From contig JABGQA010000080.1 of assembly GCA_018644665.1 (NCBI GenBank), positions 56,445 to 120,444 of the forward strand: DNA of 64,000 nucleotides. The letters are read 5' to 3'. Positions 44,713 through 63,627 of the stretch are shown here, in pieces. The position numbers and the translations under genes were made by a program. A model generated the notes under the pieces. That model was given only the letters and a program-made list of their open reading frames with translations. It was not told where the DNA came from and searched no databases. Position 1 is the stretch's first letter. Every line of letters starts with the position of its first letter. This stretch comes from Candidatus Poribacteria bacterium (lineage in GTDB: Bacteria > Poribacteria > WGA-4E > GCA-2687025).

Positions 44713-44749
44713 ATCCTGTCCTTCCGCGATGAACGTCTTGGCGCGGGCG

Positions 44750-44777
44750 AGTATAGCACCCCACCCGCGCGCGGCAA
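44750..44777 (-). promoter_or_regulatory. Promoter of the UPF0261 gene
   Basis: TTGCCG (44772-44777, minus strand), a 16-nt spacer and TATACT (44750-44755); four and five of six matches. The predicted leader is about 30 nt. Confidence 0.5.
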
Positions 44778-44810
44778 TCGAGAGCGGCGCCCGACCCCCG
44801 CGCACGCCCG

Positions 44811-44839
44811 TTGCCCGGTTCACGGAGATTGCCTATGCT
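44811..44839 (+). promoter_or_regulatory. Probable gnd promoter
   Basis: TTGCCC (44811-44816), a 17-nt spacer and TATGCT (44834-44839); four of six matches each, about 60 bp before the gnd ATG. Confidence 0.4.
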
Positions 44840-44899
44840 GGCGCCCTACCGGACGACCGGCACGCGCGACCTTTGGCATGCAGGAACAGGAACCGGCCC

Positions 44900-46366: not shown

Positions 46367-46413
46367 CCCACGCCTCGTGCACTCGATGGCTTCGGGAGCG
46401 CTCTTGGGTGGCT

Positions 46414-47658: not shown

Positions 47659-48079
47659 GGCACGCAGCCTCCAATGTGATTCGCAGCCGGAGCGAGCGGC
47701 GACGGTGACGCACGGCTTACCATGCAGGCCCCGTCCCGGCAAGCGTCTGGCGCGGGACGTGGCGTCGCTTTGCCACGTATCCTGTGGTTACGCGGGGATG
47801 GCCCCCACCGTTGGAGTGGGAGAGTCGGGGCGACGCCGCGCACAGGGCGCCGGGGTTACCATTGGGAGAGCGACGCGGTCCGCGGCTCCGGTGCGGCCTA
47901 ATCCTCGGCGGGGTCATCCGCGTCTCTTGTGTGGGGGAATTCTCGGCGATACCACACTCACGCGCGTGCCCGAGAGACGCAGAGCAGACTTCGCCACTGC
48001 GGGCCGGCGTCCGTGTAACGGCGCCGCGACGCCCAGTGGGCGAGTGCAGTGCTGGCTGCCAGATGCCAACAGCAAAGCG
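47659..48079. other. 421-bp leader between divergent genes, upstream of the receptor operon
   Basis: No ORF is convincing. A 7-bp hairpin (ACGTGGC at 47757-47763, GCCACGT at 47772-47778) with an 8-nt loop is the clearest structure. I searched by eye for a Fur box, the cobalamin riboswitch box, TPP and FMN signatures and found none. The length and GC content leave room for an unrecognised leader RNA or regulator sites controlling the receptor and its enzymes. Confidence 0.4.
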
Positions 48080-50179
48080 ATGGACACTTTGATGAACGCT
48101 CGACGGCTGGTATACGCTTGCGCTGCCACGGCGGCTCTGACCCTCTCCGCCGGCTTGTCCGCTCAGGAATCGCCTGAGCGTACGCTGGAGGAGGTCGTCG
48201 TAACGGACACGACGTCGGACAGGGCGAGCGACGTCTCGACCGGGCTGAAACTCGGCCTTTCGGCGATGGAAACGCCCTCAAGCGTCGGCGTCGTCACACG
48301 AGGGACAATCGAGGCGCAGGGCGCGAACATCCTGGGTGACGCTTTGCGCAACACGGCGGGCGTGACCACCCACACCGGCTTCGGCGTCCACGATGTGTTC
48401 TTCATCCGCGGATTCGAGTCGCTTACGAACGGCCTGGTGTTAACGGACGGAGCCGCCGAGCCCGAGGTGAGCTTCTACAACCTGTACAACGTCGAGCGAG
48501 TCGAGGTACTGAAGGGCCCGGCGGCCTTCCTGTACGGAGCGAACCCGCTGTCCGGCGCGGTGAACCTCGTGCGGAAAGCTCCACGCTTCGCCGATCACGG
48601 CTCGTTCGGGATCGCATACGGGGCGTACCAGACCAACCGCGGCACTGTGGATGTAGGCTGGGCCGAGGGCGACGACATCGCGCTCCGCCTCAACGGGTTG
48701 TGGCGAGACTCCGAGAACTACCGCGACGACAAGGAAAACACGACGCTCGCTGTCAACCCCGCGCTACGCTGGCGGGCCGGCGACGACGTGACTTTCGACA
48801 TCAACTTCGAATACGCCGAGCTAGACTACGTTTCCGACGCCGGGCTTCCTCTGGTGAACGGCATGCCCGCGCCGAACGTAGCGAGGACGCAGTCCTACCA
48901 GTCGCCATTCGATCGGTCGGAGCAGACAACGCTCCGGGGTCGGTTCGACCTTACCGCGGAACTCGGGGGGTGGGTCACGCTGCGCAACAAGGCGTACTTC
49001 ACGGACCTCGACTGGCTGTCCGACGGCACGCTGTTCAACGGCGCCTTCCCCAACCAGACAGGCTCATGGGAGACCTTCCGGACACTCGCGTCCCTCGACG
49101 ATGAGCAGCGCGCGCTGGGTGACCAGCTCGAAGCGGTGCTCCGATTCGACACGGGCGCGCTGCGGCACACGCTCATGATCGGCGTCGAGGCGATGCAGTT
49201 GACCGACCGCTTCACGCTGGATGTCGCCGCCCTGCCGAACAGCGACATCTTCTCGCCGGTCGAGACCGCGACGCGGCCCCTGTTCCAGATACCGGGGGCC
49301 CTCCAGACGGTCGACGCGACGACTCTGGTCGCCGCGCCGTACCTCGTGGACCACGTGGCGCTGTCCGACCAGGTCCAGGTGCTCCTGGGCGCGCGACACG
49401 ACTGGGTCGAGTACGAGGACGACGTCAGCGGGCAGCAACGCGACTACGCGCAGTTGAGTCCCATGGTTGGGGCCGTATACGCGCCGTCCGCCACGCTGTC
49501 ACTCTACGGGAACTTTGGGCGAGCGTTCGCGCCGCCGTCCAGCCGCGTCCTCGGCGACGTCGAGGCGGAGGAGAGCACGCAGTTTGAGCTGGGCGCCAAG
49601 CACATCCTCATGGAGGGGAAAGCGCGCGCGTCGCTTGCCGTATACTCTCTCGAACGCGACATCACCATACCGGACACCTCGCAGATCACCGAGCAGCTCG
49701 GGACGCAGCGCTCGCGAGGCGTCGAAGTCGAGGCCGAGGCGCATCCCGACGACACGCTCAGCATCTATGCGTCGTACGCGCTCAACGACTCGGAGTATAC
49801 CGAGTTCATGCAGACGCTCGTCGTCCAGACCGCCGAGGGCTTCGATGTGCAGACCGTCGCCCGCGTGGGCGCGACGCCGGCGTTCGCGCCGGAGCACATC
49901 CTGAACATCTGGGCGGAGAAGCGTCTGGACAGCGGTCTCGGGCTGGCACTCGGCGCGCGTTACGTAGGCGACCAATTCGTCTCCGAGGAGAACGCCTTCA
50001 CGATCGACAGCGTGCTGACGTTGGACGCCGGCGTATCGTACGCGTACGAGGACGTCACGTGGCGCCTCAACGTCCGCAACCTCACCGATCGCGAATACGT
50101 GACGCGCGGATTCGGCGAGTTCTCAGTTATTCCCGCGCAGCCCATCACGGTGTTCAGCTCTCTCGGTTGGAGCCTATGA
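48080..50179 (+). CDS. TonB-dependent outer-membrane receptor, siderophore-receptor type
   Basis: 699 residues from an ATG at 48080 (ATG at 48092 also possible; neither has a clear ribosome site). A signal peptide (LVYACAATAALTLSAGLSAQ) is followed by a TonB-box-like EEVVVTD near 40, the plug domain to about 175 (PSSVGVVTRGTIEAQG, DALRNTAGVTTHTGFG, FFIRGFES, VERVEVLKGPAAFLYG, PLSGAVNLVRK), then a 22-strand-type barrel ending in FSSLGWSL. The plug reads like ferric siderophore receptors. The stop overlaps the next start (ATGA), tying the receptor to a chorismate lyase, CoA ligase and halogenase-like gene. It probably imports the chelate or product made or used by those genes; the ligand is unknown. 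Confidence 0.92.
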   Translation: MDTLMNARRLVYACAATAALTLSAGLSAQESPERTLEEVVVTDTTSDRASDVSTGLKLGLSAMETPSSVGVVTRGTIEAQGANILGDALRNTAGVTTHTGFGVHDVFFIRGFESLTNGLVLTDGAAEPEVSFYNLYNVERVEVLKGPAAFLYGANPLSGAVNLVRKAPRFADHGSFGIAYGAYQTNRGTVDVGWAEGDDIALRLNGLWRDSENYRDDKENTTLAVNPALRWRAGDDVTFDINFEYAELDYVSDAGLPLVNGMPAPNVARTQSYQSPFDRSEQTTLRGRFDLTAELGGWVTLRNKAYFTDLDWLSDGTLFNGAFPNQTGSWETFRTLASLDDEQRALGDQLEAVLRFDTGALRHTLMIGVEAMQLTDRFTLDVAALPNSDIFSPVETATRPLFQIPGALQTVDATTLVAAPYLVDHVALSDQVQVLLGARHDWVEYEDDVSGQQRDYAQLSPMVGAVYAPSATLSLYGNFGRAFAPPSSRVLGDVEAEESTQFELGAKHILMEGKARASLAVYSLERDITIPDTSQITEQLGTQRSRGVEVEAEAHPDDTLSIYASYALNDSEYTEFMQTLVVQTAEGFDVQTVARVGATPAFAPEHILNIWAEKRLDSGLGLALGARYVGDQFVSEENAFTIDSVLTLDAGVSYAYEDVTWRLNVRNLTDREYVTRGFGEFSVIPAQPITVFSSLGWSL

Positions 50180-50793
50180 CAACCGTCGCGCCAGTCGACG
50201 CCGGCCTCGTGCCCTCGCAGCCGCACTCGGTGGCGTACGTCGCCCAGGCGCGGCGGCCGCAGGATATGAAGCCCGCGGACATCCGAACTATCGGGCCGTA
50301 CCACCGCGCGCTGCTCGTCATGGACGGCACGCTGACGCACTTCGTCGAGGCATTTCACGGCGAGGCCCTCGACTCGGCAGGCCTACGACAGCGCACGGAG
50401 CCTTTGGTCGCGTACGACGAATGGCTCGCGGCCCCTCCCGGCATGCCCGTAATGGCGCGGGAGGCGGTCCTAACCGGCGCCATCAGCGGACGGCTGTACG
50501 CCTACGCCGAGACTCGCATCGTCACCGACCGGCTGCCGCCATGCCTGCGCGAGGCGATCGACGGGAGCGGCGAGTTGCTCGGCCGGATAATGCGCGCGTG
50601 CCGCGTGGAGACGTACCGTGAACTCCTGTGGTACGGGTTCCAGTACCCCGACGACCTTCCCGAGGCGCTGTGCGCCCACGCGGGCACACGGTTCCTGACC
50701 CGCGCGTACCAGATCATCGCGCGCGGTCGGCCCCTGATGGTCATCACTGAGAAGTTCCCACTACCGGACACCGATGAACACGCCGCCTCCTGA
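50176..50793 (+). CDS. Rv2949c/UbiC-type chorismate lyase
   Basis: 205 residues; ATG at 50176 overlaps the receptor stop. Chorismate lyases remove pyruvate from chorismate to give 4-hydroxybenzoate. Compared with what I recall of M. tuberculosis Rv2949c: DGTLTHFVEAF near 50, AETRIVTDRLPPCL near 111, ELLGRIMRACRVETYRE near 133 and LTRAYQIIARGRPLMVITEKF near 174 align in order. R95 (MAREAVL) and E192 (VITEKF) match the catalytic Arg and Glu of E. coli UbiC. The fold is cytoplasmic with no signal peptide. The stop overlaps the CoA ligase start by 20 bp, so activation of the product is the likely next step. UbiC for ubiquinone is a less likely role here because no ubi gene is near. Confidence 0.83.
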   Translation: MTTVAPVDAGLVPSQPHSVAYVAQARRPQDMKPADIRTIGPYHRALLVMDGTLTHFVEAFHGEALDSAGLRQRTEPLVAYDEWLAAPPGMPVMAREAVLTGAISGRLYAYAETRIVTDRLPPCLREAIDGSGELLGRIMRACRVETYRELLWYGFQYPDDLPEALCAHAGTRFLTRAYQIIARGRPLMVITEKFPLPDTDEHAAS

Positions 50794-52072
50794 CGACACG
50801 CGCGACGCCGAGTCGCGACGTGCGGAACAGCTGCGCCGTCTGCGCGAGATGCTCGACGCCGTCCTCCCGACCAACCCATTCTACGGCGCCAAGATGGCCG
50901 TCGCGGGAGTGACTCAAGGTCAGGACGTCGACTCCTTCGACGCCTACGCCCGCCTCCCCTTTACGACGAAGGGCGAACTGTCAGAGGACCAGGACGAGGC
51001 GCCGCCGTACGGCACGAACCTGACGTACCCGTCCCCGCAATACGTGCGGATGCACCAGACATCCGGCACGACGGGAAGCCCTCTGCGGTGGCTGGACACT
51101 GAGGAGAGCTGGAGCTGGTTCGGCGCATGCTGGGCAGACGTGTTCGGCGCGGCAGGTGTGGACGGGTCGGATAGGGTCTTCTTCCCGTTCTCGTTCGGCC
51201 CCTTCATCGGGTTCTGGACCGCGTACGAAGGCGCTCGTCGGATCGGGGCGATGGCGCTGCCGGGCGGGGCCATGTCCTCCGAGCAGCGGGTACGCGCCAT
51301 CGTCGAGCACAAGGCGACCGTCGTAGTCAGCACGCCCACCTACGCGCTACGTCTGGCCGAGGTCGCAGCCGAAGCCGGCGTCGACCTCGCGTCATCGGAC
51401 GTGCGGGTGACGATCCACGCCGGCGAGCCGGGGGCCAGCATTCCGGGCACGAAGCGCCGCATTGACGAGGCCTGGGGGGCGACCTGCTTCGACCACGCCG
51501 GGGCGACCGAAGTCGGCGCGTGGGGCTTCGAGTGCGAGGCGCACGCCGGGATGCACCTGAACGAGGCCGAGTTCATCTGCGAGGTGATCGAGCCCGATAC
51601 AGGCGACCCGGCCGACGAGGGCGAGCTCGTACTCACGAACCTCGGCCGTCTCGGCATGCCGGTGATCCGCTACCGCACGGGCGACCACGTGCGCTTGGCG
51701 GCCGGGCCTTGCCCCTGCGGACGGACGTACCGGCGGATCCAGGGCGGCGTCATTGGGCGGATCGACGATGCGCTCCTCGTGCGGGGCGTTGTCGTGTTCC
51801 CAAGCGCTGTCGAGAGCATCGTGCGCCGCTTCCCCGCTGTCGGCGAATTCGCGATACACGCGCAACGGCACGGTGAACTCGACCAGCTCACGGTGCAGAT
51901 CGAGAGCGAGGCCGCGGCGGATAGCGAAGCCACGACGGACGCCGTGGCCGCGGCGCTGCGCGAGGCGTTGGGGCTCCGAGTGTCCGTTGAGTCCGTCGCC
52001 GTGGGCTCGTTGCCCCGGTTCGACCTGAAGGCGCGCCGCGTGACCGACCATCGCCAACAGACTCACGACTAG
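50774..52072 (+). CDS. PaaK-like aryl-CoA ligase (AMP-forming)
   Basis: 432 residues, like phenylacetate-CoA ligase (about 430). Adenylating enzymes activate an aryl acid as an AMP ester and transfer it to CoA. Seen: YARLPFTTKGEL near 58, RMHQTSGTTGSPLRWL near 92 (P-loop like AMP motif), VSTPTYALRLAEVA near 186, FDHAGATEVGAWGFEC near 240, RTGDHVRL near 299 and a PaaK C-terminal domain from about 325 (GGVIGRIDDALLVRGVVVFPSAVESI). The start overlaps the lyase stop. The most likely substrate is 4-hydroxybenzoate or a derivative, by position; loading of a carrier protein rather than CoA is possible, though no carrier gene is nearby. Confidence 0.88.
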   Translation: MNTPPPDDTRDAESRRAEQLRRLREMLDAVLPTNPFYGAKMAVAGVTQGQDVDSFDAYARLPFTTKGELSEDQDEAPPYGTNLTYPSPQYVRMHQTSGTTGSPLRWLDTEESWSWFGACWADVFGAAGVDGSDRVFFPFSFGPFIGFWTAYEGARRIGAMALPGGAMSSEQRVRAIVEHKATVVVSTPTYALRLAEVAAEAGVDLASSDVRVTIHAGEPGASIPGTKRRIDEAWGATCFDHAGATEVGAWGFECEAHAGMHLNEAEFICEVIEPDTGDPADEGELVLTNLGRLGMPVIRYRTGDHVRLAAGPCPCGRTYRRIQGGVIGRIDDALLVRGVVVFPSAVESIVRRFPAVGEFAIHAQRHGELDQLTVQIESEAAADSEATTDAVAAALREALGLRVSVESVAVGSLPRFDLKARRVTDHRQQTHD

Positions 52073-52094
52073 ACCGATTCAGGGACGCAACGAC

Positions 52095-53342
52095 ATGACG
52101 CCGACCGCGGACAGCTACGACGTGATCGTCATCGGCGGAGGGCCGGCGGGGTGCACGGCGGCGGCTCTGCTTGCCGAACATGGGCGCAGCGTCCTCCTCC
52201 TTGAGCGCGACCTGTTCCCGCGGTTCAAGGTCGGCGAATCGCTCATGCCCGGCACGTACGAGACGTTCGCGCGCCTCGGCGTTCTCGACAAGCTCAACGA
52301 GACGGCGTTCCCCCGCAAGCACAGCGTGCAGTTCTACTCCGGGTCAGGGCGCGCGTCGAAGCCGTTCTACTTCTCCGACAACAACGCGCACGAGAGTTCG
52401 GTCACGTGGCAGGTCTTGCGCAGTGACTTCGACGCCCTCATGATCGCCGCGGCCGCGGACAAGGGGGCCGAGGTCATCCACGAAGCGAGCGTCCACGATG
52501 TCCTGTTCGACGGCGACCGGGCGGTCGGCGTTCGCGGGAAGTTCGGCGACGGCGACATCCGTGAAGTAAGGGCGACCGTCGTCGTCGACGCCTCGGGCCA
52601 GAGCGCGCTGATCTCGCGGCGACTGAAGATCGTGTCCACGGAGGCGGGCCTGCGCAAGGCGTCGATCTACACGCACTTCACCGGGGCGCAGCGCGACAGC
52701 GGCATCGACGAAGGCGCGACGATCATCTACCAGACCGAGGGCAAGGACTCGTGGTTCTGGTTCATCCCCCTGCCTGAGGATCGCGCGAGCGTCGGCGTCG
52801 TCGGCGACATCGACTACCTGATCCAGAGCCGTGACGGCGACGCAACGGCGATCTTCCACGAGGAGCTCTCCAAGTGCGCCCCCCTCGAGGAGCGTCTGCG
52901 GCGCGCCGAACAGGCGTTCCCGATGAAGGTGACCAAGGACTTCTCGTACCGCTCCAAGCAGGTCGCCGGGCCTTCGTGGGTGCTGGTTGGCGACGCGTTC
53001 GGGTTCCTGGATCCGATCTATTCGTCTGGGATCTACCTCGCGCTGAAGTCCGGCGAATGGGCAGCAGACGCCGTGCACGACGCGTTCGAGTCGGACGACT
53101 TCTCCGCGGAGCGACTCGGCGTCTTCGGGCCGAAGCTCAATGAGGGGATGGAGGCGTTGCGCAAGCTCGTCTACGCCTACTACACGAAGGACTTCAGTTT
53201 CGGACGCTTCCTGCGAAGGTTCCCAGAGTGTCAGCAGGGAATCATTGATATACTCAGCGGGAACGTGTACGCCGACAGCGTTCGCAGGATATTCGGCCCG
53301 ATGGCCGAGATGTGTGAACTTCCGGAAGAGATCACGCTATGA
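52095..53342 (+). CDS. Flavin-dependent halogenase-like FAD oxidoreductase
   Basis: 415 residues, ATG after a weak site, 22 bp after the ligase. The N-terminal FAD site GGGPAG lies at 14-19. FKVGESLMPG (44-53) and RKHSVQFY with K75 occupy the places where phenolic flavin halogenases of the CmlS/PltA type have their VGES segment and catalytic Lys. WFWFIP at 220-225 is the halogenase WxWxIP motif, and F304-x-x-P307-x-x-S310-x-G312 fits the FxxPxxSxG motif described for the group. GDAFGFLDP is the second FAD contact. Related geranylgeranyl-reductase-type enzymes share parts of these, so halogenation is likely but not proven; hydroxylation or reduction are alternatives. Its stop overlaps the PQQ gene (ATGA). 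Confidence 0.78.
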   Translation: MTPTADSYDVIVIGGGPAGCTAAALLAEHGRSVLLLERDLFPRFKVGESLMPGTYETFARLGVLDKLNETAFPRKHSVQFYSGSGRASKPFYFSDNNAHESSVTWQVLRSDFDALMIAAAADKGAEVIHEASVHDVLFDGDRAVGVRGKFGDGDIREVRATVVVDASGQSALISRRLKIVSTEAGLRKASIYTHFTGAQRDSGIDEGATIIYQTEGKDSWFWFIPLPEDRASVGVVGDIDYLIQSRDGDATAIFHEELSKCAPLEERLRRAEQAFPMKVTKDFSYRSKQVAGPSWVLVGDAFGFLDPIYSSGIYLALKSGEWAADAVHDAFESDDFSAERLGVFGPKLNEGMEALRKLVYAYYTKDFSFGRFLRRFPECQQGIIDILSGNVYADSVRRIFGPMAEMCELPEEITL

Positions 53343-54571
53343 ACACAACAGCGCGACGGTTCGCCTGGGCGGTAGCGCTCACAGTAGTGGTCGGCCCGGG
53401 CGTGGCCTTCGCTGACTGGACGCAGTGGCGCGGCGGCGACCGAGACGGGGTCGCGTCGGTGTCGGTGGAGGCGTGGCCGGAGGCGTTGAGCCTCACATGG
53501 CGCCACGAGATCGGAACGGGCCACGCGACCCCGGCAGTGGCCGACGGCCTGATCTACACGCATTCGCGCCAGGGCGAGGACGAGGTGGTCTCCTGTCTGA
53601 CCTTGCACGGCCACGACGTCGTGTGGAGTAAGTCGTACCCGGCGCCATACCGGATGAACCCGGCGGCGCGCGGCCATGGCCCAGGCCCGAAGTCGTCCCC
53701 AACGCTTGCGAGCGGCACGGTGGTCACGCTAGGCATTAGCGGCATCCTGTCTGCGTACGCCGCGGAGACGGGCGATCTAAGATGGCAGAAGCGATTCGAC
53801 GACCGGTTCGCGTCCACGGCGCCGGTGTTCGGCACGGCGATGTCTCCCCTCGTGGACGGCGACGTCGTGATCGCGCACGTCGGCGGCGACGGCGACGGGG
53901 CCTTGATCGCGCTCGACCTAGTGACCGGTGACGAACGATGGGCCTGGGACGGCGACGGCCCCGGCTACGCATCGCCCGTGGCGGTCGAGCTAGGCGGCGT
54001 CCTCCAGTACGTCACGCAGACGCAGAAGCACGTCGTGTCCGTGGATGCGGCATCGGGGGCGTTGCTGTGGAGCATGCCCTACACGACGCCGTACGAGCAG
54101 AACGCCATCACCCCGGTCGCATACGGTGACACGATCCTCCTGTCGGGCCTCGACAGCGGGGCCGTCGCTATACGGCCGCGCGAGGACGATGGCGCGTGGA
54201 CGCTCGACGAGGTGTGGCGCAGCGAACTGTCCATGTACATGAGTACACCGGTCCTGTCTGGCGACCGCCTCATCGGCCTTGCGGGCAAGAGGAAGGGCCA
54301 GTTCTTTTGTCTCGATCCCTCGACAGGCGACACGCTGTGGACGACCGAGGGCCGCGAAGGCGACTACGCTGGGATCGTCGGCGTCGGCGACGCGTTCGTG
54401 TGCCTGACGTCCGATGCCGAGTTGCACGTGATCCGCGACAGCGCTGACGCATACGACGAGATCGCAACGTACAAGGTCGCCGACAAGCCCACGTGGGCGC
54501 ACCCCGTCGTGCTCGATGGGCAGATACTCGTCAAGGACGAGGACTCCCTCTCGCTGTGGAGTCTCAGATAG
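53339..54571 (+). CDS. Secreted PQQ-type beta-propeller (quinoprotein-like)
   Basis: 410 residues, start overlapping the halogenase-like gene's stop. Residues 5-26 (RRFAWAVALTVVVGPGVAFA) are a signal peptide, so the protein is periplasmic or secreted. The rest is a seven- or eight-bladed propeller made of PQQ-like repeats (GATPAVADGLIYTH-type blade openers, ISAYAAETGDLRW, LDLVTGDERWAW, VDAASGALLWSM, LDPSTGDTLWTTEG), beginning with DWTQWRGGDRDG, common in planctomycete-type exported quinoprotein-like proteins. No heme site and no clear metal-PQQ dehydrogenase residues, so an enzyme role is doubtful; a structural or binding role is more likely. Coupling to the cytoplasmic aryl genes is odd. Confidence 0.85.
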   Translation: MNTTARRFAWAVALTVVVGPGVAFADWTQWRGGDRDGVASVSVEAWPEALSLTWRHEIGTGHATPAVADGLIYTHSRQGEDEVVSCLTLHGHDVVWSKSYPAPYRMNPAARGHGPGPKSSPTLASGTVVTLGISGILSAYAAETGDLRWQKRFDDRFASTAPVFGTAMSPLVDGDVVIAHVGGDGDGALIALDLVTGDERWAWDGDGPGYASPVAVELGGVLQYVTQTQKHVVSVDAASGALLWSMPYTTPYEQNAITPVAYGDTILLSGLDSGAVAIRPREDDGAWTLDEVWRSELSMYMSTPVLSGDRLIGLAGKRKGQFFCLDPSTGDTLWTTEGREGDYAGIVGVGDAFVCLTSDAELHVIRDSADAYDEIATYKVADKPTWAHPVVLDGQILVKDEDSLSLWSLR

Positions 54572-54608
54572 CCTCCCCGCTTGGTTCCGGGGACAAGGAG
54601 TTCAGAGC

Positions 54609-54830
54609 ATGAACGGCCGCCTGCCGCCCTGGCTACTCGCAGTGTTGCTCGTCCTGCTGTACGCGCTGCACAACGACATATGGTTGTGGAGCGACGCGCG
54701 GATCGTGGCGGGGCTGCCGATCGGCATGGTCTACCACATCGTGTACTGCTTCGCGGCGACGGGCATGATGGCGCTCCTTGTAAAGCACGCGTGGCCCAGC
54801 CACGTCGACGACGACGAGGAGTCTGACTGA
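54609..54830 (+). CDS. DUF3311 small membrane subunit
   Basis: 73 residues from an ATG at 54609 with AAGGAG upstream; the frame is open further back but only over the preceding gene. Two membrane helices (PWLLAVLLVLLYALH and GLPIGMVYHIVYCFAATGMMALLVKHAW) with the VYHIVYC stretch typical of DUF3311. Such proteins are encoded with sodium:solute symporters and are thought to be small partner subunits. The stop overlaps the symporter start by one base (TGATG), so translation is coupled. Confidence 0.85.
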   Translation: MNGRLPPWLLAVLLVLLYALHNDIWLWSDARIVAGLPIGMVYHIVYCFAATGMMALLVKHAWPSHVDDDEESD

Positions 54831-56314
54831 TGACGACACTCGGTATCATCATCGTCTATCTCGTCATGGTCCTGCTCGTGGGCAGCCTGAGCCATCGTCT
54901 CTCCCGCGGCACCGGCGAAGACTACTTCGTCGCCAGCAGGAGCATCGGCCCGTTCTTCCTGCTGATGTCGCTGTTCGGCACGAACATGACCGCCTTCGCC
55001 ATTCTCGGCGGCTCAGGCGAGGGGTACCACAAGGGCATCGGCGTCTTCGCGCTCATGCCGTCGATCTCCGCGCTCGTCATCCCCGTAGTGTTCTTCTTCA
55101 TCGGCACGCGTGTATGGGCGCTGGGCAAGCAGCACGGCTACTACACGCAGATACAGTTCTTCCGTGATCGCTGGAACTCCAACATCCTCGGTTTGCTCCT
55201 GTTCATTGTCTCCATCGCGCTGCTGATCCCGTACCTGCTCATCGGAGTCATGGGTGGCGGCATCACGCTGCACAACATCACGGCGAAGGCCGTGCCCGAA
55301 TGGGTCGGCGCGGTCCTCGTGACGGGCGTCGTATTCGCGTACGTCTGCTTCGGCGGGATGCGCGGCACGGCCTGGGCGAACGCCTTCCAGACGCTCGTGT
55401 TCATGATCCTCGGCGGCATCACGCTGTTCATCATCGTTCACAAGATGGGCGGCCTGTCCGGCGCCATCGCGAAGGTGCAGGCGACCCATCCAGAGCTGCT
55501 GCAGAGAGGGCCCGCGGAGCCAGGCGGTAAGAGCCTCATCAGCCCTGTGCGCATGCTGACCTACACCTGCATCCCGCTGTCCGTGGGCATGTTCCCGCAC
55601 ATGTTCATGCACTGGCTGACCGCCGAGAAGGCGGCGTCCTTCAAGACGCCCCTAATCGTGTACCCGCTCTGCATCGCCGCGGTGTGGATACCGAGCGTCC
55701 TCCTAGGCATCTTCGGAGCCGCGGAGTTCGAAGGCCTCAAGGGGCCCGCGGCCAACTACGTGCTCATCAGGATGATCGCGAAGCACGCGCCGACGGCCTT
55801 GGCCGGTCTGCTGTGCGCTGGTGTGTTTGCGGCGATCATGTCGTCGTTGGATTCGCAGGCATTGTCCCTCGGCAGCATGTTCACGCACGACATCGTTCGG
55901 CACTACGGCTTCCACGACCGTATGACCGAGAAACAGCAGATCCTCTTCGGGCGCATCTTCGTGTTCGCCGTCCTCGCTCTGACGTTCGTGCTGGCGCAGG
56001 TGACTAACCGCAGCATCTTCCGCCTTGGTGTGTGGTGCTTCACAGGGTTCGCCGCGATGTTCCCAGTGGTGTTGTCGGCTCTGTTCTGGCGCAGAAGCAC
56101 GAAGGTTGGGGCCATCGCGTCCGTCCTGACGGTGATCGTGCTGTGGACGTTCTTCTTCACGAAGGGATGGACCAACCCCGCGTATACGGTCGGCGGGACA
56201 GGCATTATGCCGGTCGTCGTGATCCTGGCGGCTTCTGCGGTGGCAATGGTCGTCGGCTCCCTCATAAGCCGTCCGCCGGAGGCCGCCACCGTCAGCAAGT
56301 TCTTCCGGGACTAG
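54830..56314 (+). CDS. Sodium:solute symporter (SSS family)
   Basis: 494 residues with about 13 membrane helices, coupled to the DUF3311 gene. SSS carriers use the sodium gradient to import sugars, acids, vitamins or amino acids. Seen: SRGTGEDYFVASRSIGPFFLLMSLFGTNMTAFAILG near 25 (split over the first helices, with the family's sodium-site region), GYYTQIQFFRDRW near 103, YVCFGGMRGTAWANAFQT near 167 and GVFAAIMSSLDSQALSLGSMFTHDI near 330 with the Ser pair of the sodium site. The partner DUF3311 is typical of one SSS subgroup. The substrate is not readable; cluster context points to an aromatic acid or a sugar. Confidence 0.9.
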   Translation: MTTLGIIIVYLVMVLLVGSLSHRLSRGTGEDYFVASRSIGPFFLLMSLFGTNMTAFAILGGSGEGYHKGIGVFALMPSISALVIPVVFFFIGTRVWALGKQHGYYTQIQFFRDRWNSNILGLLLFIVSIALLIPYLLIGVMGGGITLHNITAKAVPEWVGAVLVTGVVFAYVCFGGMRGTAWANAFQTLVFMILGGITLFIIVHKMGGLSGAIAKVQATHPELLQRGPAEPGGKSLISPVRMLTYTCIPLSVGMFPHMFMHWLTAEKAASFKTPLIVYPLCIAAVWIPSVLLGIFGAAEFEGLKGPAANYVLIRMIAKHAPTALAGLLCAGVFAAIMSSLDSQALSLGSMFTHDIVRHYGFHDRMTEKQQILFGRIFVFAVLALTFVLAQVTNRSIFRLGVWCFTGFAAMFPVVLSALFWRRSTKVGAIASVLTVIVLWTFFFTKGWTNPAYTVGGTGIMPVVVILAASAVAMVVGSLISRPPEAATVSKFFRD

Positions 56315-56317
56315 CGG

Positions 56318-57613
56318 GTGAGGATCGCGTACATCGCGGCGGGCGCCGCGGGCATGCTCTGCGGCGCCTGCATCCACGACAACACGCTCGCCGCGGCGAT
56401 GCAGCGCAAGGGCCACGATGTGGCCCTTATGCCCACGTACACGCCTATCCGCACGGATGAGCGCGACGTCAGCATCGACCGTGTGTTCTACGGCGGCGTG
56501 AACGTGTACCTCCAGCAGAAAGCGGCCCTGTTCCGGCACACGCCGTGGGCGTTCGACAGGCTGTTGGACGGGCGGCCTCTGCTAAACTCGCTCTCCCGCT
56601 TCAGCGCCTCTACCAGCGCGGCGGATCTCGGCGGGCTTACCGTCTCCATCCTCCGGGGTGAGCACGGCCGCCAGGGCAAGGAACTCGCGAAGCTCGTGCG
56701 CTGGCTGCGCGACGAGTACCAGCCGGACATCGTGCAGCTCACGAACTCGATGTTCGTCGGCATGGTCGCGCCGATCAAAGACACCCTCGGTGTGCCGGTT
56801 CTATGCGCCCTCCAGGGCGAGGACATCTTCCTCGAAGACTTGGAGGAGCCGTACCGCTCCGACGCGCACGCGCAACTGCGTGCCCGTGCGCGGGATGTCG
56901 ACGGCTTCATCGCTCCATGTAGGTACTACGCCGACGCCATGGTCGAGTACATGGATGTCCCCTCGGATCGGGTGCACGTCGTCCCCTTGGGCATCGACGT
57001 CCGAGGCCACGGCCCGGAGGCCGTTGACCGGCCAGCCGACCCCTTCGTCATCGCGTACCTGGCGCGCATCTGCCCGGAGAAGGGCCTGCACATCCTCATC
57101 GACGCGGTGATCGAACTGCTACGGGAACGCGGCGCCGATTCCGCGACGCTCCGGGTCGCGGGCTACCTCGGGAAGAAAGACGTGCCGTACCTCGCTGACT
57201 GCGTGGCCCGCATGGCGGAGGCCGGGTTCGGCGCGCGGATGGAACACCTGGGCGAGGTCGATCGCGCTGGGAAGGTCGATATGCTCGCATCGGCGCATGT
57301 GCTGAGCGTGCCCACGGTATACAAGGAGCCGAAGGGCCTGTTTGCCCTGGAGGCCATGGCCAACGGCACGCCTGTCGTCGCGCCCGCCCATGGCGGGTTC
57401 CCCGAGATGATCGAGCAGACGGGTGGCGGGATTCTCGTCGCGCCCAACTCGCCGGAGGCCGTCGCAGACGGCATAGGTCTGCTGATGGACGATCGCGACC
57501 TGCGCGACTCCCTCGGCCGCGCGGGGCATGACGCCGTGCGACGCGACCGGACTGACGAGATCATGGCCGACCGGACGCTCGCGCTGTACGAGGACTACGT
57601 CGGCGAGCGATGA
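56318..57613 (+). CDS. Glycosyltransferase family 4-type enzyme
   Basis: 431 residues from a GTG at 56318, 3 bp after the symporter. GT-B retaining glycosyltransferases move a sugar from a nucleotide donor. Seen: RIAYIAAGAAGMLCGACIHDNTLAAAMQRKG as the N-terminal acceptor domain opening, VLCALQGEDIFLEDL near 165, FIAPCRYYADAMVEYM near 198, VHVVPLGIDVRG near 220, IAYLARICPEKGLHILIDAV near 248, and EPKGLFALEAMANGTPVVAPAHGGFPEMIE near 345 with the E-x7-E donor motif. It may glycosylate the aryl product of the upstream genes, or be unrelated; the position in the run of coding genes is the only link. Confidence 0.88.
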   Translation: MRIAYIAAGAAGMLCGACIHDNTLAAAMQRKGHDVALMPTYTPIRTDERDVSIDRVFYGGVNVYLQQKAALFRHTPWAFDRLLDGRPLLNSLSRFSASTSAADLGGLTVSILRGEHGRQGKELAKLVRWLRDEYQPDIVQLTNSMFVGMVAPIKDTLGVPVLCALQGEDIFLEDLEEPYRSDAHAQLRARARDVDGFIAPCRYYADAMVEYMDVPSDRVHVVPLGIDVRGHGPEAVDRPADPFVIAYLARICPEKGLHILIDAVIELLRERGADSATLRVAGYLGKKDVPYLADCVARMAEAGFGARMEHLGEVDRAGKVDMLASAHVLSVPTVYKEPKGLFALEAMANGTPVVAPAHGGFPEMIEQTGGGILVAPNSPEAVADGIGLLMDDRDLRDSLGRAGHDAVRRDRTDEIMADRTLALYEDYVGER

Positions 57614-57727
57614 CCGGGCCCCACCGCCGCGCACGGGGGCGGCGTTGCCTTCCCCGCGGGTGAAGCCGATGCTAGGGCCGTTCCCGGCGCGGTGGCCGCA
57701 CGACACACGACGACGGAGCAACGACGT

Positions 57728-58198
57728 ATGGCATGGCTAATCTTCGCTCTGATGACAGTGGCGTCTTGGGGCGTCTACGGGGTCTTACTGCACACTGGGG
57801 CGATCGGCATGGCCGACCCAGTGCACGGGCGGTACAAGGCGTTCCTCTTCGTTGGTGTCGCGTACCTCCTCGTGGCGGTGCTGGGGTCTATCGTGATGCT
57901 CCAGATGAACGGGGCGTCGTGGGACTTCCCCAAGAAGGGGATGGTCTGGTCGACGCTCGCCGGAGTGGTCGGGGCGATCGGCGCGCTCGGCGTGTTGCTG
58001 GCATTTGGCGCCAAGGGGTCTCCGGCCGTCGTCATGTCGATAGTCTTCGCCGGCGCCCCGATCGTGAACGCGATCACGGCTCTGATTGTCCACCCACCAA
58101 CGGGCGGGTTCAGTGCGCTGCGCTGGCAGTTCGTCGCTGGTATCGGCTGCGCGGCGGTGGGCGGATGCCTCGTCACCCTTTTCCGCCCCGGCGCCTGA
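57728..58198 (+). CDS. Small four-helix DMT-like membrane protein
   Basis: 156 residues from an ATG at 57728; GTG at 57692 would add a non-hydrophobic 12 residues. About four or five helices (WLIFALMTVASWGVYGVLLHTG, AFLFVGVAYLLVAVLGSIVML, VWSTLAGVVGAIGALGVLLAFG, AVVMSIVFAGAPIVNAITALIV, FVAGIGCAAVGGCLVTLF). The GSPAVVMSIVFAGAP segment looks like half of an EamA-type carrier, so it may work as a dimer. 114 bp separate it from the glycosyltransferase gene, with no strong promoter, and the thioesterase follows by 14 bp. The transported compound is unknown. Confidence 0.78.
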   Translation: MAWLIFALMTVASWGVYGVLLHTGAIGMADPVHGRYKAFLFVGVAYLLVAVLGSIVMLQMNGASWDFPKKGMVWSTLAGVVGAIGALGVLLAFGAKGSPAVVMSIVFAGAPIVNAITALIVHPPTGGFSALRWQFVAGIGCAAVGGCLVTLFRPGA

Positions 58199-58212
58199 CC
58201 GAGAGGTACTGA

Positions 58213-58638
58213 ATGTCGAGTGAATTCGTCACGACGCGGCGGATGGAGTTCGCCGACACCGACCTGGCGGGGATCGTGCACTTCTCGCGGTACACGGTCT
58301 TCATGGAGACCGCCGAGCACGAATTCCTGCGGTCGATCGGCACGGACATCCACGTCAAGCGCGACGGCGACATCGTGAGTTGGCCGCGTGTCTCCATATC
58401 CTGCGACTACGTGCAGCCGTCCTACTACGGCGAGGAGCTGGAGATCGGCGTGACCGTCCTGCGGCGTGGCGAGAAGTCCGTCACGTACGGATTCGACTTC
58501 CGACGCGGCGACGACGAGATCGCCCGCGGGAAGACGACCGCAGTGTTCTGCGTGTGCAACCCGGGCGAGAAGCTGCGCTCGCTGGCCATACCCGCCGACA
58601 TCGCCGAGCGTCTGGACGCCATCGCGGTGACGGAGTAG
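58213..58638 (+). CDS. YbgC/4HBT-type acyl-CoA thioesterase
   Basis: 141 residues, a normal single hotdog domain. 4-Hydroxybenzoyl-CoA thioesterase and YbgC hydrolyse short or aryl acyl-CoA. Seen: RRMEFADTDLAGIVHFSRYTVFMETAEHEFLRSIG with D17 at the catalytic Asp position of 4HBT, H23 and the E at 32-35 of the helix, then RVSISCDYVQPSYYGEELEIGV. The family includes Tol-Pal-linked YbgC, but no tol gene is near. Being 5.4 kb downstream of the aryl-CoA ligase on the same strand, a role in releasing or proofreading an aryl-CoA is plausible and unproven. Confidence 0.87.
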   Translation: MSSEFVTTRRMEFADTDLAGIVHFSRYTVFMETAEHEFLRSIGTDIHVKRDGDIVSWPRVSISCDYVQPSYYGEELEIGVTVLRRGEKSVTYGFDFRRGDDEIARGKTTAVFCVCNPGEKLRSLAIPADIAERLDAIAVTE

Positions 58639-58646
58639 GCCCTGCG

Positions 58647-59324
58647 ATGGACACTCGGCTCGCGATATCAGATGTGACCAAGGTCTTCCCAGGGGAGGCC
58701 GGCGAAGTCGAGGTGCTGTCCGGGGTCACGCTGGCCATCTCGGCGGGCGAGTCGCTTTCGATCACCGGGCAATCCGGTTCTGGCAAGAGCACGCTGCTGC
58801 ACCTGATCGGGACGCTCGACACGCCCACAGCCGGCACGGTGACGTTCGACGACGAGGACCCCTTCTCGCTGCCCGAGCCTGCGCTCGCGCGCTTCCGCAA
58901 CGAGCGGATCGGGTTCGTGTTCCAGGATCACCATCTGCTGCCGCAATACTCCGTGACAGAGAACGTGCTCATCCCCGCGCTGCCGTTCCGGACGGGCGGG
59001 GCACACGCGGAGAAGAGAGCGACGGAGCTCATCGACCGCGTGGGCCTATCGCACCGCGCGAGCCACCGGCCAGGGCAGCTGTCAGGGGGTGAGCGACAGC
59101 GTGTCGCCGTCGCCCGCGCGCTCATCAACGGCCCAGGCGTGCTGCTCTGCGACGAGCCGACGGGGAACCTCGACCCGGACACCGCGGACGCAGTCGCCGA
59201 CCTTCTCCTCGAATTGCACTCGGCGGAGCGCACGATCCTGATCGTCGTCACGCACAGCTTGGAACTCGCGGCCCGTTTCGGCAGACATGTCCGCATGGAA
59301 TCCGGCAAATGCGTCGAAGCCTAA
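58647..59324 (+). CDS. LolD/MacB-type ABC transporter ATPase
   Basis: 225 residues from an ATG at 58647, 8 bp after the thioesterase; longer in-frame sequence is a shadow of that gene. Walker A GQSGSGKST near 41, Q-loop FVFQDHHLLPQYS near 92, signature LSGGERQRVAVARAL near 145, Walker B VLLCDEPTGNLD near 167 and the H-loop VTHSLELA near 203. The family powers lipoprotein export (LolCDE), MacB and YbbAP-type systems. It overlaps the large permease gene by 16 bp, so they form one transporter. No LolA or LolB gene is near. Confidence 0.93.
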   Translation: MDTRLAISDVTKVFPGEAGEVEVLSGVTLAISAGESLSITGQSGSGKSTLLHLIGTLDTPTAGTVTFDDEDPFSLPEPALARFRNERIGFVFQDHHLLPQYSVTENVLIPALPFRTGGAHAEKRATELIDRVGLSHRASHRPGQLSGGERQRVAVARALINGPGVLLCDEPTGNLDPDTADAVADLLLELHSAERTILIVVTHSLELAARFGRHVRMESGKCVEA

Positions 59325-62300
59325 CGCACTACCGAGCGATCCACGTCGCCGTGGTCCTCGGAGCGGCCGTCGCAACGGCGACGCTGACGGGCTCGCTCGT
59401 CGTCGGCGACTCGGTCAAGGCAAGCCTACGCGCGCTCACGCTCGACCGGCTAGGCGCCACCGACGACGCGCTGTCCTCCGAGCGACTCTTCCGCGCGACG
59501 CTCGCCGCCGACGACGCCTTCGCCGAGTCGTACACATCCCTCGCGCCTGCGATTCTGCTCAACGGCGCCGCACGAGCCGCGTCGGGCGGCCGTCGGGCGT
59601 CCGGCGTACAGATCGTCGGCGCGGACGCCCGGTTCGCCGCCCAGTACGCCTCGAGTGTCGCTCTGGTCGAGGGGCTCGCTGCGAGCAATGGCGGACGTGT
59701 ACCGCCGGTTGTCATCAACGAGGCCCTGAGCCGCGAACTGTCGGCGGCGGTCGGTGACGAGTTGCTGCTGTCGTTCGGGCGACGGGGCGACGTGCACCCG
59801 GAATCGCTGTTCGGCTCGCGCGATGCGGCCGACGCGCGGGGCCTCATGCGCGTCGTCGTGTCGGGCGTGGTCCCTGATCGAGGCGTTGGCCGCTTCGCGT
59901 TGCGCCCGCACCAGCACGCGCCGATGAACGCGTTCGTCCCGTTGGACGCCCTACAGCGCACTCTCGACCGCGCCGGCGACGTCAATCTGATGCTTGCCAC
60001 GCGCGGTCCTACCACGGCTGGCGCGGCCGCACTCCTAGACGCCGCCGACAAGGCGCTGACCGTGGCGGACCTCGGCCTCCGCATCCGGGAGTACGACGAC
60101 GTCCTGATCATCGAGAGCGAACAGCTCGTCCTGTCCGATGGCATCGCCGAAGCCATCATGGCCGCCGCGAGCGATGTTGCGATGGAGCCCCTGCCGGTCC
60201 TCACGTACGTGGCGACGCGGATGGCAATCGACGGACGGGAGGCGTCTTACGCGATGGTCGCGGCCGTCGACCGACCTACGCTGCCGCCGCCGAACGCTCA
60301 CGCTGGAGCCTTGACCGAAGCGGAGCCCGCGCCCGGGCGCTCGATCGTCCTCAGCGAATGGCTGGCACAGGACCTGGGGGCAAGCCCGGGCGACGAGGTG
60401 CTCATGAGCTACTTCGTCGTTGCCCCGGACGAGACGCTGCTGTCCCGCGAGGCTTCGTTCGTGGTCGCCGCCACGTCGCCGCCGGCCGGTCTCGTCGCGG
60501 ACAGGCGACTGACGCCTGCCATCGAGGGGCTGGGCGACGCCGACGACATCGGCGACTGGGACGCCCCGTTTCCGGTGGACATGTCCCGCGTCACCGAGCG
60601 GGATGAGGACTACTGGGATTCCTACGGGGCCACGCCCAAAGCGTTCGTGTCGTTGCGCGATGGCCAGGATCTGTGGGCCGGACGCTTCGGGTCGCTCACG
60701 TCCGTTCGTCTAACGCCGAAGCCAGGGCAGTCAACGCACACGGCCTCCGAGGAGTTCGGTCGGGCTCTCCTTGCCCGCGCCCGGCCGTCGCAGGCCGGGT
60801 TCGCCGCACACGCCGTGCGCGAGGACGGGCTCGCGGCGGCGACCGGAGCCACTGACTTCAGCGGCCTGTTCGTGGGTTTCAGCATGTTCCTGATCGCGGC
60901 GTCGGCCCTGCTGACGCAACTCCTGTTCCGCCTGGGCGTCGAGCATCGCGCCCGAGAGATCGGGACACTGCTCGCCGTGGGGTTCCCCGCGGCCGCTGTC
61001 CGGCGCCGGTTCCTCGGGGAGGGCGCCCTGCTCGCCGTCATTGGGGCGACGGTTGGGGTCGGCGTCGGCGTGGGGTACGCATGGTTGATGATCGCGGGTC
61101 TCCGGACGCTCTGGGTCGGAGCCGTCGGAACGCGCGATCTGGCGCTACACGTACGCGCGGGCTCCCTCGCCCTTGGTTGGGGTATCTCGGTCGTCGTCGT
61201 GGCTGCGGCGATCGCTCTGGCTGTCCGACGCTTGGGTAGGATCCCAGCGCGGGCGCTCCTGAGCGGCTCGGCACCCGACCTCCACACGTCCACGCCCCGC
61301 GTCGCCCGACTCGTCGCGACTCCGGCCTCCGTCCTCTCGGCGCTGATCATGGGGTACGGCCTTCTCACCGGCGCGGCGGCATCGCCATCGCTCTTCTTCG
61401 CCAGCGGGGCACTCGCGCTTGTGGGCGGCCTTGCCCATTTCGCTACGTGGCTCGGCCGTGCGGGGCGCCGACGCCGGGAGCTGCGCGCGACCATCGACCT
61501 GAGCGCGCGAAGCGCCGCACGGCGCCCGTCGCGGAGCATGCTGTCGGCGACGCTCATCGCGTGCGCGTGTTTCGTGATCGTTGCGGTCGGTCTCAACCGA
61601 CACGCGCCACTGTCGAGGGAGGAGGCGCGCGATCCGGCGTCCGGGTCTGGCGGGTTCGCGCTCGTCGCTGAAGCGGACATCCCGCTACATCACGACCTGA
61701 ACACGCCTGAGGGTCGCTTCGAGCTGGGGCTCGCCGCGAAGGCGGAGTCGTTGCTGGCGGAGTCGCCCGTGCTGGCGCTCCGTACGGTGCCTGGCGAAGA
61801 CGCCAGTTGCCTCAACCTGCATCGCCCGTCGGTCCCAACGCTGGTGGGCGTCACGGACGCCTTCATCTCGCGCGAGGCGTTCACCTTCACCGACGCCATC
61901 GACGGGGCAGGCGGCCCGTGGGAGCTGTTGCGACGTGACTTCGGCCCCGGAGTGATACCCGCCATCGCGGACGCCAACTCCGCGCAATGGATCCTGCACA
62001 TAGGCGTGGGGGACGACCTGGTAACGACCAACGAGGTTGGACACCAGATCCGTCTCCGCCTCGTCGGCATGCTGGCGACGAGCGTCCTCCAGAGCGTGAT
62101 GCTCGTGTCGGACGACGCCCTGCGAGCCAACTTTCCGGGCCGCAGCGGCGCGGCCTTCTTCCTGATCGACGCCCCGCCGGGCGGGGCGGACGATCTCCTG
62201 GCGGCGCTCGAGGGCGGCCTCGCGGCGTATGGCTTCGACGCGATGCCGACGGACGCGAAGCTGGCGCAGTTCCGGGCGGTCGAGGACACGTACCTCTCGA

Positions 62301-62668
62301 CCTTCCAGGCGTTGGGCGGACTGGGGCTGCTCCTCGGGACAGCCGGGCTGGCGGTCGTGCTCCTGCGCAACATGATTGAGCGCCGCGGCGAACTGGCCAC
62401 GCTCCGCGCGTTCGGCTTCCGCCGCGGGACGCTGCTCGTGATGCTGATCGTGGAGAACGCGTTCCTGGTGGCCGTCGGCCTCAGCGTGGGTACCGTCGCC
62501 GCGCTGATCGCCGTGCTACCGGCAATCACCGCTGCCGATGCGCACGTGCCGTGGGGGTCGGTGGGCGCCACGCTTGTCGCCGTGTTCGCGTGCGCGGTTG
62601 CCGCGACCGCTCTTGCCGCGGCATACGGCCTCCGCGCGCCGCTCCTCGCGTCGCTGAAGGCCGAGTAG
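59309..62668 (+). CDS. Large FtsX-like ABC permease, YbbP/MacB type
   Basis: 1,119 residues, start ATG inside the ATPase gene. It is a two-module FtsX protein: a helix at 9-32 (RAIHVAVVLGAAVATATLTGSLV), a large periplasmic domain to about 505, then an FtsX-type helix cluster near 510-625 (LFVGFSMFLIAASALLTQLLF, VGVGVGYAWLM), more helices at 680-720, a second soluble domain at about 790-970, and a C-terminal FtsX domain at about 990-1,110 (LLLGTAGLAVVLLRNMIERRGELATLRAFGFRRGTLLVM). This resembles YbbP-like permeases rather than LolC/E. The TolC-type exit of MacB is not evident. The substrate is probably a lipid or lipoprotein. Confidence 0.88.
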   Translation: MRRSLTHYRAIHVAVVLGAAVATATLTGSLVVGDSVKASLRALTLDRLGATDDALSSERLFRATLAADDAFAESYTSLAPAILLNGAARAASGGRRASGVQIVGADARFAAQYASSVALVEGLAASNGGRVPPVVINEALSRELSAAVGDELLLSFGRRGDVHPESLFGSRDAADARGLMRVVVSGVVPDRGVGRFALRPHQHAPMNAFVPLDALQRTLDRAGDVNLMLATRGPTTAGAAALLDAADKALTVADLGLRIREYDDVLIIESEQLVLSDGIAEAIMAAASDVAMEPLPVLTYVATRMAIDGREASYAMVAAVDRPTLPPPNAHAGALTEAEPAPGRSIVLSEWLAQDLGASPGDEVLMSYFVVAPDETLLSREASFVVAATSPPAGLVADRRLTPAIEGLGDADDIGDWDAPFPVDMSRVTERDEDYWDSYGATPKAFVSLRDGQDLWAGRFGSLTSVRLTPKPGQSTHTASEEFGRALLARARPSQAGFAAHAVREDGLAAATGATDFSGLFVGFSMFLIAASALLTQLLFRLGVEHRAREIGTLLAVGFPAAAVRRRFLGEGALLAVIGATVGVGVGVGYAWLMIAGLRTLWVGAVGTRDLALHVRAGSLALGWGISVVVVAAAIALAVRRLGRIPARALLSGSAPDLHTSTPRVARLVATPASVLSALIMGYGLLTGAAASPSLFFASGALALVGGLAHFATWLGRAGRRRRELRATIDLSARSAARRPSRSMLSATLIACACFVIVAVGLNRHAPLSREEARDPASGSGGFALVAEADIPLHHDLNTPEGRFELGLAAKAESLLAESPVLALRTVPGEDASCLNLHRPSVPTLVGVTDAFISREAFTFTDAIDGAGGPWELLRRDFGPGVIPAIADANSAQWILHIGVGDDLVTTNEVGHQIRLRLVGMLATSVLQSVMLVSDDALRANFPGRSGAAFFLIDAPPGGADDLLAALEGGLAAYGFDAMPTDAKLAQFRAVEDTYLSTFQALGGLGLLLGTAGLAVVLLRNMIERRGELATLRAFGFRRGTLLVMLIVENAFLVAVGLSVGTVAALIAVLPAITAADAHVPWGSVGATLVAVFACAVAATALAAAYGLRAPLLASLKAE

Positions 62669-62671
62669 GTC

Positions 62672-63493
62672 TCAACCACTCCAGGGCCCGAAGACGGCCT
62701 CGGCGGTGCCGGCCAGGAGTTGCTGCATAGTCTCGTGCTCGATGCCGGGCGCGTGTTCCGTGAACAGCGTCAGCCCCTCCGTGTACCCGCACTGCTCGAC
62801 GATGAACGGGAAGTCCGTCGCCCACATGAGGCGTTCGGCGCCGTAGGCGTCGAGAAGCCGAGAGATCCAGGGATGCAGGTCGGCGTACGGCCAATCGACG
62901 CGCGACGCGCGCGGGAACTGAGACAGCTTCACGTGGAGATTCGGGTGTCGCGACAGCGCAACAAGGTCCTCGAACTCGGCATTCTCGCCCGCGGAGGACC
63001 TGCAGTGGCCGAAGTGGTCGATGACCGCTACGGTCTCCGGCGACGCCTGGCAGAGGGCATCGATCGCGTCGAAGTGCGACGGGGAGACCAGGAACCCGAC
63101 ACGCATGCCGAGGTCGCCGGCGGCAGCGTAGAGTTGATGTCCAAGGTCAGAGCCCAACCCCTGACCATCCGGGAACAGCCCAGGGTTCACACGCACGGCG
63201 ATGTAGCCCTCGTCGCGCCACCGCGCTAGTTCGCCGACCGGGTCAGCGTGCTGCGGGTCGACGAGGCACATGCCCTTGAACCGGCCCGGCTCGTCGCGCA
63301 GCGCGCCGGACACGTAGCGATGGTCGAACCGATACACGATCGGTTGGATGATGAGCGCGCCGGCGACGCCCGCCGCGTCCATGCACTCGATCAGGAAGTT
63401 CGTGTCGGCGCGCGCCGTGGGCGTCCGTCCCTCGGCGAACGGGAACTCGGCTCCGTCTCCCCAAACATGCAGATGCGGGTCGATGATGCGCAT
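62672..63493 (-). CDS. Amidohydrolase_2-family hydrolase
   Basis: 273 residues from an ATG at 63493; ATGs at 63547 and 63574 are possible but lack ribosome sites. Seen: RIIDPHLHVWGDG at the start (metal His pair), IQPIVYRFDHRYVSGAL near 47, AVRVNPGLFPDG near 97, AVIDHFGHCR near 155, HVKLSQFPR near 180 and MWATDFPF near 217 with the catalytic Asp, ordering typical of amidohydrolase_2 enzymes such as those splitting lactones or aromatic acids. It ends 3 bp from the convergent permease gene. Divergent from the SnoaL-like gene over 134 bp. A gamma-resorcylate-type or lactonase-type substrate is plausible; none is shown. Confidence 0.85.
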   Translation of the reverse strand: MRIIDPHLHVWGDGAEFPFAEGRTPTARADTNFLIECMDAAGVAGALIIQPIVYRFDHRYVSGALRDEPGRFKGMCLVDPQHADPVGELARWRDEGYIAVRVNPGLFPDGQGLGSDLGHQLYAAAGDLGMRVGFLVSPSHFDAIDALCQASPETVAVIDHFGHCRSSAGENAEFEDLVALSRHPNLHVKLSQFPRASRVDWPYADLHPWISRLLDAYGAERLMWATDFPFIVEQCGYTEGLTLFTEHAPGIEHETMQQLLAGTAEAVFGPWSG

Positions 63494-63521
63494 GCGGACA
63501 GGCCCTTCGAGAGTGATCACG

Positions 63522-63550
63522 TTGAGCGCGCGAACCGGTTCGCCCATAGT
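63522..63550 (+). promoter_or_regulatory. Probable promoter with a perfect palindrome in its spacer
   Basis: TTGAGC (63522-63527), a 17-nt spacer and CATAGT (63545-63550), four of six matches each. The spacer contains GCGAACCGGTTCGC (63530-63543), a perfect 14-bp palindrome, a likely repressor site between the divergent amidohydrolase and SnoaL-like genes. Confidence 0.5.
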
Positions 63551-63627
63551 GGCAGAACGAACACAGACGGGCAAGCCGCGGCCGCCCGGTCGGCGGACGC
63601 TTCCCGCGCCGCGTTAGGAGACGAGAC

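Follow-up and report, generated by a model that had tools for sequence, protein, structure and literature searches.

Flavin-dependent halogenases are mostly known as sporadic tailoring enzymes of natural-product clusters. PltA, Mpy16, Bmp2, ChlB4 and CmlS are halogenases with carrier-protein-bound substrates, and PltA, Bmp2 and Mpy16 act on thioester-tethered groups. Marine bromophenol clusters (the bmp5-bmp6-bmp7 type and the 4-BP cluster of Microbulbifer) combine a chorismate lyase with a flavin halogenase and a cytochrome P450, according to an excerpt of PMC10579414. Here we describe a locus in a 64,000-nucleotide stretch of DNA (the window) from a Candidatus Poribacteria bacterium, taken from contig C171 of a metagenome-assembled genome (MAG) of 7.47 Mb (G000; completeness 92.86, contamination 5.32). 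A Pfam scan of the window proteins identified 12 consecutive plus-strand genes between positions 48080 and 62668, among them genes for a halogenase-like flavoprotein and an acid-coenzyme A (CoA) ligase. This string makes up one half of a more extensive gene set, which is met again in several uncultured groups; the core of the set is found in at least three little-known groups of bacteria.

The flavoprotein and the CoA ligase

The halogenase-like flavoprotein (52095..53342, plus strand) matches PF04820 (Trp_halogenase) at 92.4 bits, against a cut-off of 21. It carries the sequences GGGPAG, WFWFIP and FLDPIYSSG, corresponding to all three of the GxGxxG, WxWxI(P) and FxxPxxSxG motifs whose roles in flavin-dependent halogenases are set out in an excerpt of PMC12871659. 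Lys75 aligns with the catalytic lysine of FasV, PltA, Mpy16 and Bmp2 and is identical in 81 of 81 aligned rows; row counts for this protein, the lyase and the ligase include the window protein. The structures nearest to the predicted model are FasV, Bmp2 and PltA, and a Foldseek comparison of the model with the PDB returned the same top group. Scores against narrower families fell below their cut-offs: 201 bits against 900 for the CmlS equivalog NF033113, 143.3 against 240 for the QhpG maturase NF049967, and 119.4 against 400 for the LodB model. QhpG was not among the 50 matches listed in the structural comparison, which does not exclude it. Sequence, lysine and predicted fold together support the halogenase type claimed for this protein in an earlier note on the window, and halogenating activity is predicted. 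The family is large: of the best 8000 candidates in a protein search, at least 7934 reached an E-value of 1e-40 or better. Scanning one genome per species with the flavoprotein alignment gave 402 relatives, and the locus counts below refer to the best 80.

Could the flavoprotein instead be a monooxygenase? It would then convert an aryl-CoA to a catechol, and the resulting iron chelator would be retrieved through the TonB-dependent receptor at the head of the string. This receptor (48080..50179, plus strand; in-frame ATG at 48080) has Plug and barrel domains and scores 270.3 bits against the siderophore-receptor model TIGR01783 (cut-off 223.5), so siderophore binding is predicted. We consider this alternative unlikely. 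The predicted fold matches halogenase structures far better than monooxygenases, and Lys75 is kept together with WxWxIP, a motif that reportedly prevents monooxygenation (PMC12871659, in excerpt). The chelator part of the argument is further weakened in that no receptor was seen in 54 of the 80 loci, some of which are ended by contig ends.

Directly upstream of the flavoprotein lies the gene for a PaaK-like acid-CoA ligase (50774..52072, plus strand; AMP-binding_C_2, 68.6 bits, cut-off 25). It scores 27.3 bits against the general AMP-binding model, under the cut-off of 29.9, and 214.1 against the PaaK equivalog TIGR02155 (cut-off 646.3), making it PaaK-like rather than PaaK. Its relatives in the PDB are 4R1L and 6HDW. 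The second-best of these, 6HDW, is a 2-hydroxyisobutyryl-CoA ligase and suggested a non-aryl acid as substrate; it was the sole non-aryl relative for which a pocket description was available. The pocket residues of that enzyme are Tyr164 and Ser239 (PMC8388817, in excerpt). In our alignment, with an inferred numbering offset of 11, their places are occupied by Phe144 and Ala216, which are found in 71 of 71 and 69 of 71 rows, respectively. Because both pocket residues are replaced, a non-aryl acid is less likely, and the earlier assignment as an aryl-CoA ligase is supported as a predicted specificity. The same genome encodes a second PaaK-like ligase, 60% identical, apart from the string (L090, 9070-10512 of G000:C114).

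Recurrence and extent of the gene set

The earlier note had described five genes, namely receptor, lyase, ligase, flavoprotein and a PQQ-like (BamB-type) propeller (53339..54571; PQQ_2, 99.8 bits, cut-off 27.6). All five are present on the plus strand in that order. Their junctions measure -4, -20, +22 and -4 nt, confirming the overlaps noted at three of the four, and the lyase start overlaps the receptor stop through ATGA. When the five-gene order was sought in other genomes, it was found in L092, from a genome of the same genus (G001), and in L103; in G005 (L034) receptor, lyase and ligase run up to a contig end. Given these recurrences, the arrangement is more than chance. L092 comes from the MAG of isolate ARS61 (Candidatus Poribacteria), which is the nearest among the named records that carry the locus, and in L103 the end of a HemN-like gene lies just ahead of the five genes.

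The 80 loci come mostly from records titled Poribacteria and Latescibacterota, and also KSB1; further titles are Gemmatimonadetes/Gemmatimonadota, Gemmatimonadaceae, Deltaproteobacteria, Acidobacteria and plain bacterium. Latescibacterota loci, L104, L111 and L113 among them, hold one same-strand string in the order Fe-alcohol dehydrogenase, propeller, HemN-like radical SAM enzyme, propeller, receptor, ligase, flavoprotein, GT4-type glycosyltransferase, 168-amino-acid protein, 4HBT-type thioesterase, ABC transporter ATPase and FtsX-like permease. Genes for a DUF3311 protein and a symporter are added in other loci. The long string is split in the window's own genome, with the first four genes on contig C142 (L175, 7919-12943) and the rest in the window. 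The range 48080..62668 was given earlier with only five genes described; it also takes in seven downstream genes that were overlooked, as was the half with the Fe-alcohol dehydrogenase, propeller and HemN-like genes on the other contig.

The seven genes, all on the plus strand, encode a DUF3311 small membrane protein (54609..54830; 35 bits, cut-off 30; scanned from 54606, one codon 5' of its start), a sodium:solute symporter (54830..56314; PF00474, 159.7 bits), the GT4-type glycosyltransferase (56318..57613; PF00534, 97.3 bits), the 168-amino-acid protein (57692..58198), the 4HBT-type thioesterase (58213..58638; PF13279, 44.4 bits), the ABC transporter ATPase (58647..59324; PF00005, 121.9 bits) and the FtsX-like permease (59309..62668; PF02687, 81.4 bits). 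Homologues of the ATPase occur in 22 of the 80 loci. The 168-amino-acid protein has no Pfam or NCBIfam match and has homologues in 26 of the 80, with 64-73% identity in most homologous loci beyond the genus. The genes flanking the string (43495-47742 and 62672-63574) look unrelated to it, and comprise a UPF0261 protein, a 6-phosphogluconate dehydrogenase, a 442-amino-acid protein without Pfam match and an opposite-strand amidohydrolase.

The order is not universal. A ligase homologue is present in 59 of the 80 loci, and the core genes are dispersed in family f6. G004 (L033, L124) has propeller, receptor, PhyH oxygenase, lyase, ligase and flavoprotein, followed on the opposite strand by HemN-like, propeller and Fe-alcohol dehydrogenase genes. 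In families f2 and f7 a TRAP binding protein follows the flavoprotein and the downstream unit is mostly unseen. This last pattern would suit two unrelated neighbours, an aryl unit from receptor to propeller and an envelope or transport unit from DUF3311 to FtsX. We judge this division improbable, as the gaps between the window genes are short throughout and Latescibacterota and KSB1 loci retain the same neighbourhood. Ligase and flavoprotein of f7 (L072, 6395-12742; L073) are flanked by a Kelch protein, HAD hydrolases and a glucose/sorbosone dehydrogenase-like protein, and no receptor or lyase was seen at these two loci.

Conservation was assessed in 58 genomes of the class, including that of the window. 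The HemN-like protein is present in 49, the ligase in 50 at orthologue level and the flavoprotein in 49; 52 genomes pass the ligase search, and G007 and G011 (36-37% identity) were not counted as orthologues. All three occur together in 48 of the 58 and none in eight, three of which are less than 80% complete. The two partial sets are those of G005, without the flavoprotein (its ligase reaches a contig end), and G022, without the HemN-like protein. We claim near-core status for the set in the Poribacteria class only; outside it the distribution is patchier: among 80 genomes related to G070 (Latescibacterota), 32 have the flavoprotein, and many of those without it are small.

The HemN-like protein has a CxxxCxxC motif and a predicted HemN fold. 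The HemN signature is CxxxCxxCxC, and its fourth cysteine is absent from the HemN-like sequence. Against the coproporphyrinogen dehydrogenase model TIGR00538 (cut-off 324.95) the homologue from L044, the only one scored, reached 189.9 bits. It is conceivable, though very improbable, that this enzyme and the flavoprotein form a working pair on a peptide, protein or tetrapyrrole and that the ligase belongs to another process. Against this, the ligase has the same presence pattern as the two and sits between them in many strings. The same genome (L091, 7944-10771 of G000:C128) and G001:C422 encode another HemN-like protein paired with a flavoprotein, about 40% and about 45% identical to those of the first pair, with neither ligase nor lyase at that locus.

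The lyase and an apparent exchange of importers

The Rv2949c-like chorismate lyase (50176..50793, plus strand) is placed in its family by PF01947 (44.9 bits, cut-off 22) and by a conserved arginine and glutamate. Arg95 and Glu192, which we take to be the catalytic pair, are invariant across all 46 aligned rows and align with the corresponding residues (Arg and Glu) of 2NWI, a relative of solved structure, bearing out the claim that both catalytic residues are present. Across the class the lyase family occurs in 47 of the 58 genomes, with both lyase and ligase in 46, the ligase only in four, the lyase only in one (G049) and neither in seven (Fisher p 8e-6, uncorrected for kinship). The two genes lie within 3 kb of each other in 10 of the 58 and also in L103, and a KSB1 genome (L177) has the lyase directly 5' of the ligase. 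Their adjacency, part of the earlier description, is therefore found in several lineages.

Contrary to the earlier reading as stated, the lyase does not define the cluster. It is present in only eight of the 80 loci, and of 35 locus-bearing genomes that were scanned, 11 have its family anywhere in the genome, although MAG gaps may depress such counts. UbiC was rejected as a hidden replacement: PF04345 was found in none of 28 genomes negative for the lyase family (24 locus-bearing and four class genomes), leaving these without either lyase family; the E. coli control was positive, and other chorismatases were not searched. The lyase seems to supply locally an acid for which other lineages have a different source. 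A role in supplying a quinone precursor was also considered. No UbiA- or UbiD-like gene was apparent by eye beside stand-alone lyase copies, a weak rejection given that only three neighbour families were Pfam-scanned. Common neighbours of the stand-alone lyases in f2 (L041, L043, L045, L047) are a TRAP permease, a protein with an O-methyltransferase domain and a Kelch protein.

Receptor homologues, sought with a query that started five codons 5' of the ATG, were found in 26 of the 80 loci, and a TRAP-TAXI binding protein lies within 2 kb after the flavoprotein in 39. Since no locus holds both, this looks like an exchange of importers for one task, although both sets follow lineage. We lean towards the view that replacement of the receptor by TRAP fits substrate import at least as well as a receptor serving the cell's own product. 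In f2 the best TRAP-TAXI binding protein lies beside the flavoprotein in all seven genomes, and a fused TRAP permease lies within 3 kb of a lyase in six of them (not in G017). A split pair of these two is only suggestive, because in each of the seven genomes two or more binding proteins and two or more permeases exceed the cut-off; neither partner was found in the window's own genome.

That importer genes adjoin a CoA ligase would also suit a catabolic locus, in which an aryl or haloaryl acid enters through receptor and symporter to be activated and broken down, and ligases of the PaaK-like family often initiate degradation (PMC8388817, in excerpt). Two observations make this quite unlikely: the string itself includes a chorismate lyase, which would produce the very compound being degraded, and the Pfam matches of the 12 window genes include no ring-cleaving, ring-reducing or beta-oxidation domain.

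A proposed route and its relation to known systems

These data lead us to favour, tentatively, a mechanism in which the locus acquires or makes an aromatic acid, activates it as a CoA thioester and then halogenates the bound ring. Each reaction is our inference, set on the observed gene order, recurrence, conserved residues and predicted folds. In the window, the lyase would convert chorismate to 4-hydroxybenzoate, and relatives without a lyase would import the acid. The ligase would form the aryl-CoA thioester and the flavoprotein would halogenate its ring, by analogy with PltA, Bmp2 and Mpy16. Tethering to CoA is suggested by the lack of any carrier-protein domain among the Pfam matches of the 12 window genes (non-ribosomal peptide synthetase (NRPS) and polyketide synthase (PKS) domains were likewise not found), by the tight gene spacing and by the thioester-bound substrates of PltA-type enzymes. 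The HemN-like enzyme and Fe-alcohol dehydrogenase of the second locus could further change the product, which the 4HBT enzyme would release and the ABC/FtsX proteins may export. Receptor, propeller and symporter might import the acid, or return the product or its metal complex. The activated, possibly halogenated hydroxybenzoyl product envisaged earlier is partly supported, namely by the halogenase type, the ligase, the recurrence and the lyase-ligase adjacency, but not as a cluster defined by its lyase.

A broader proposal, of which we are doubtful, is a carrier-protein-free pathway that is near-core in the Poribacteria class and extends to Latescibacterota and KSB1. A flavin halogenase would act directly on aryl-CoA, with an exchangeable importer (TonB receptor or TRAP) and a HemN-like radical SAM partner, and the product would be a halogenated aryl compound serving as signal, chelator or building block in bacteria not known for it. 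If true, halogenation would occur outside the usual antibiotic assembly lines: the flavoprotein and its ligase and radical SAM partners are conserved together across most of the class, without assembly-line genes, and the flavoprotein recurs in other uncultured groups. If aryl-CoA is what the enzyme halogenates, flavin halogenases would gain a new class of substrate. The locus would then be a candidate producer of halogenated aromatics in groups with sponge symbionts among their members, and a large flavoprotein family would gain a testable function.

A literature search, with subscription papers largely outside its scope, found no description of this locus, and the combination of halogenase, CoA ligase, HemN-like enzyme and exchangeable importers is unreported in the literature searched. 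Its parts have known counterparts. HemN and the class C radical SAM methylases (NocN) share the CxxxCxxC motif and HemN fold with the HemN-like protein. The QhpG, LodB and GoxB maturases belong to the flavoprotein's superfamily, and the window string lacks such a substrate subunit. FasV (8ZOP) is among the structures nearest to the flavoprotein model. PltA, Mpy16, Bmp2, ChlB4 and CmlS have the closest predicted fold, with about 30% identity and the same lysine position; unlike theirs, the window string has a CoA ligase and no carrier protein. As in the bromophenol clusters excerpted from PMC10579414, a lyase would feed a flavin-dependent halogenase, there with a phenol part made without NRPS or PKS. 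Those clusters employ a Bmp5-type enzyme on free 4-hydroxybenzoate together with a P450, a domain for which the 12 window genes gave no Pfam match. The window, in contrast, places a CoA ligase between lyase and halogenase, and its halogenase-like enzyme resembles PltA and Bmp2.

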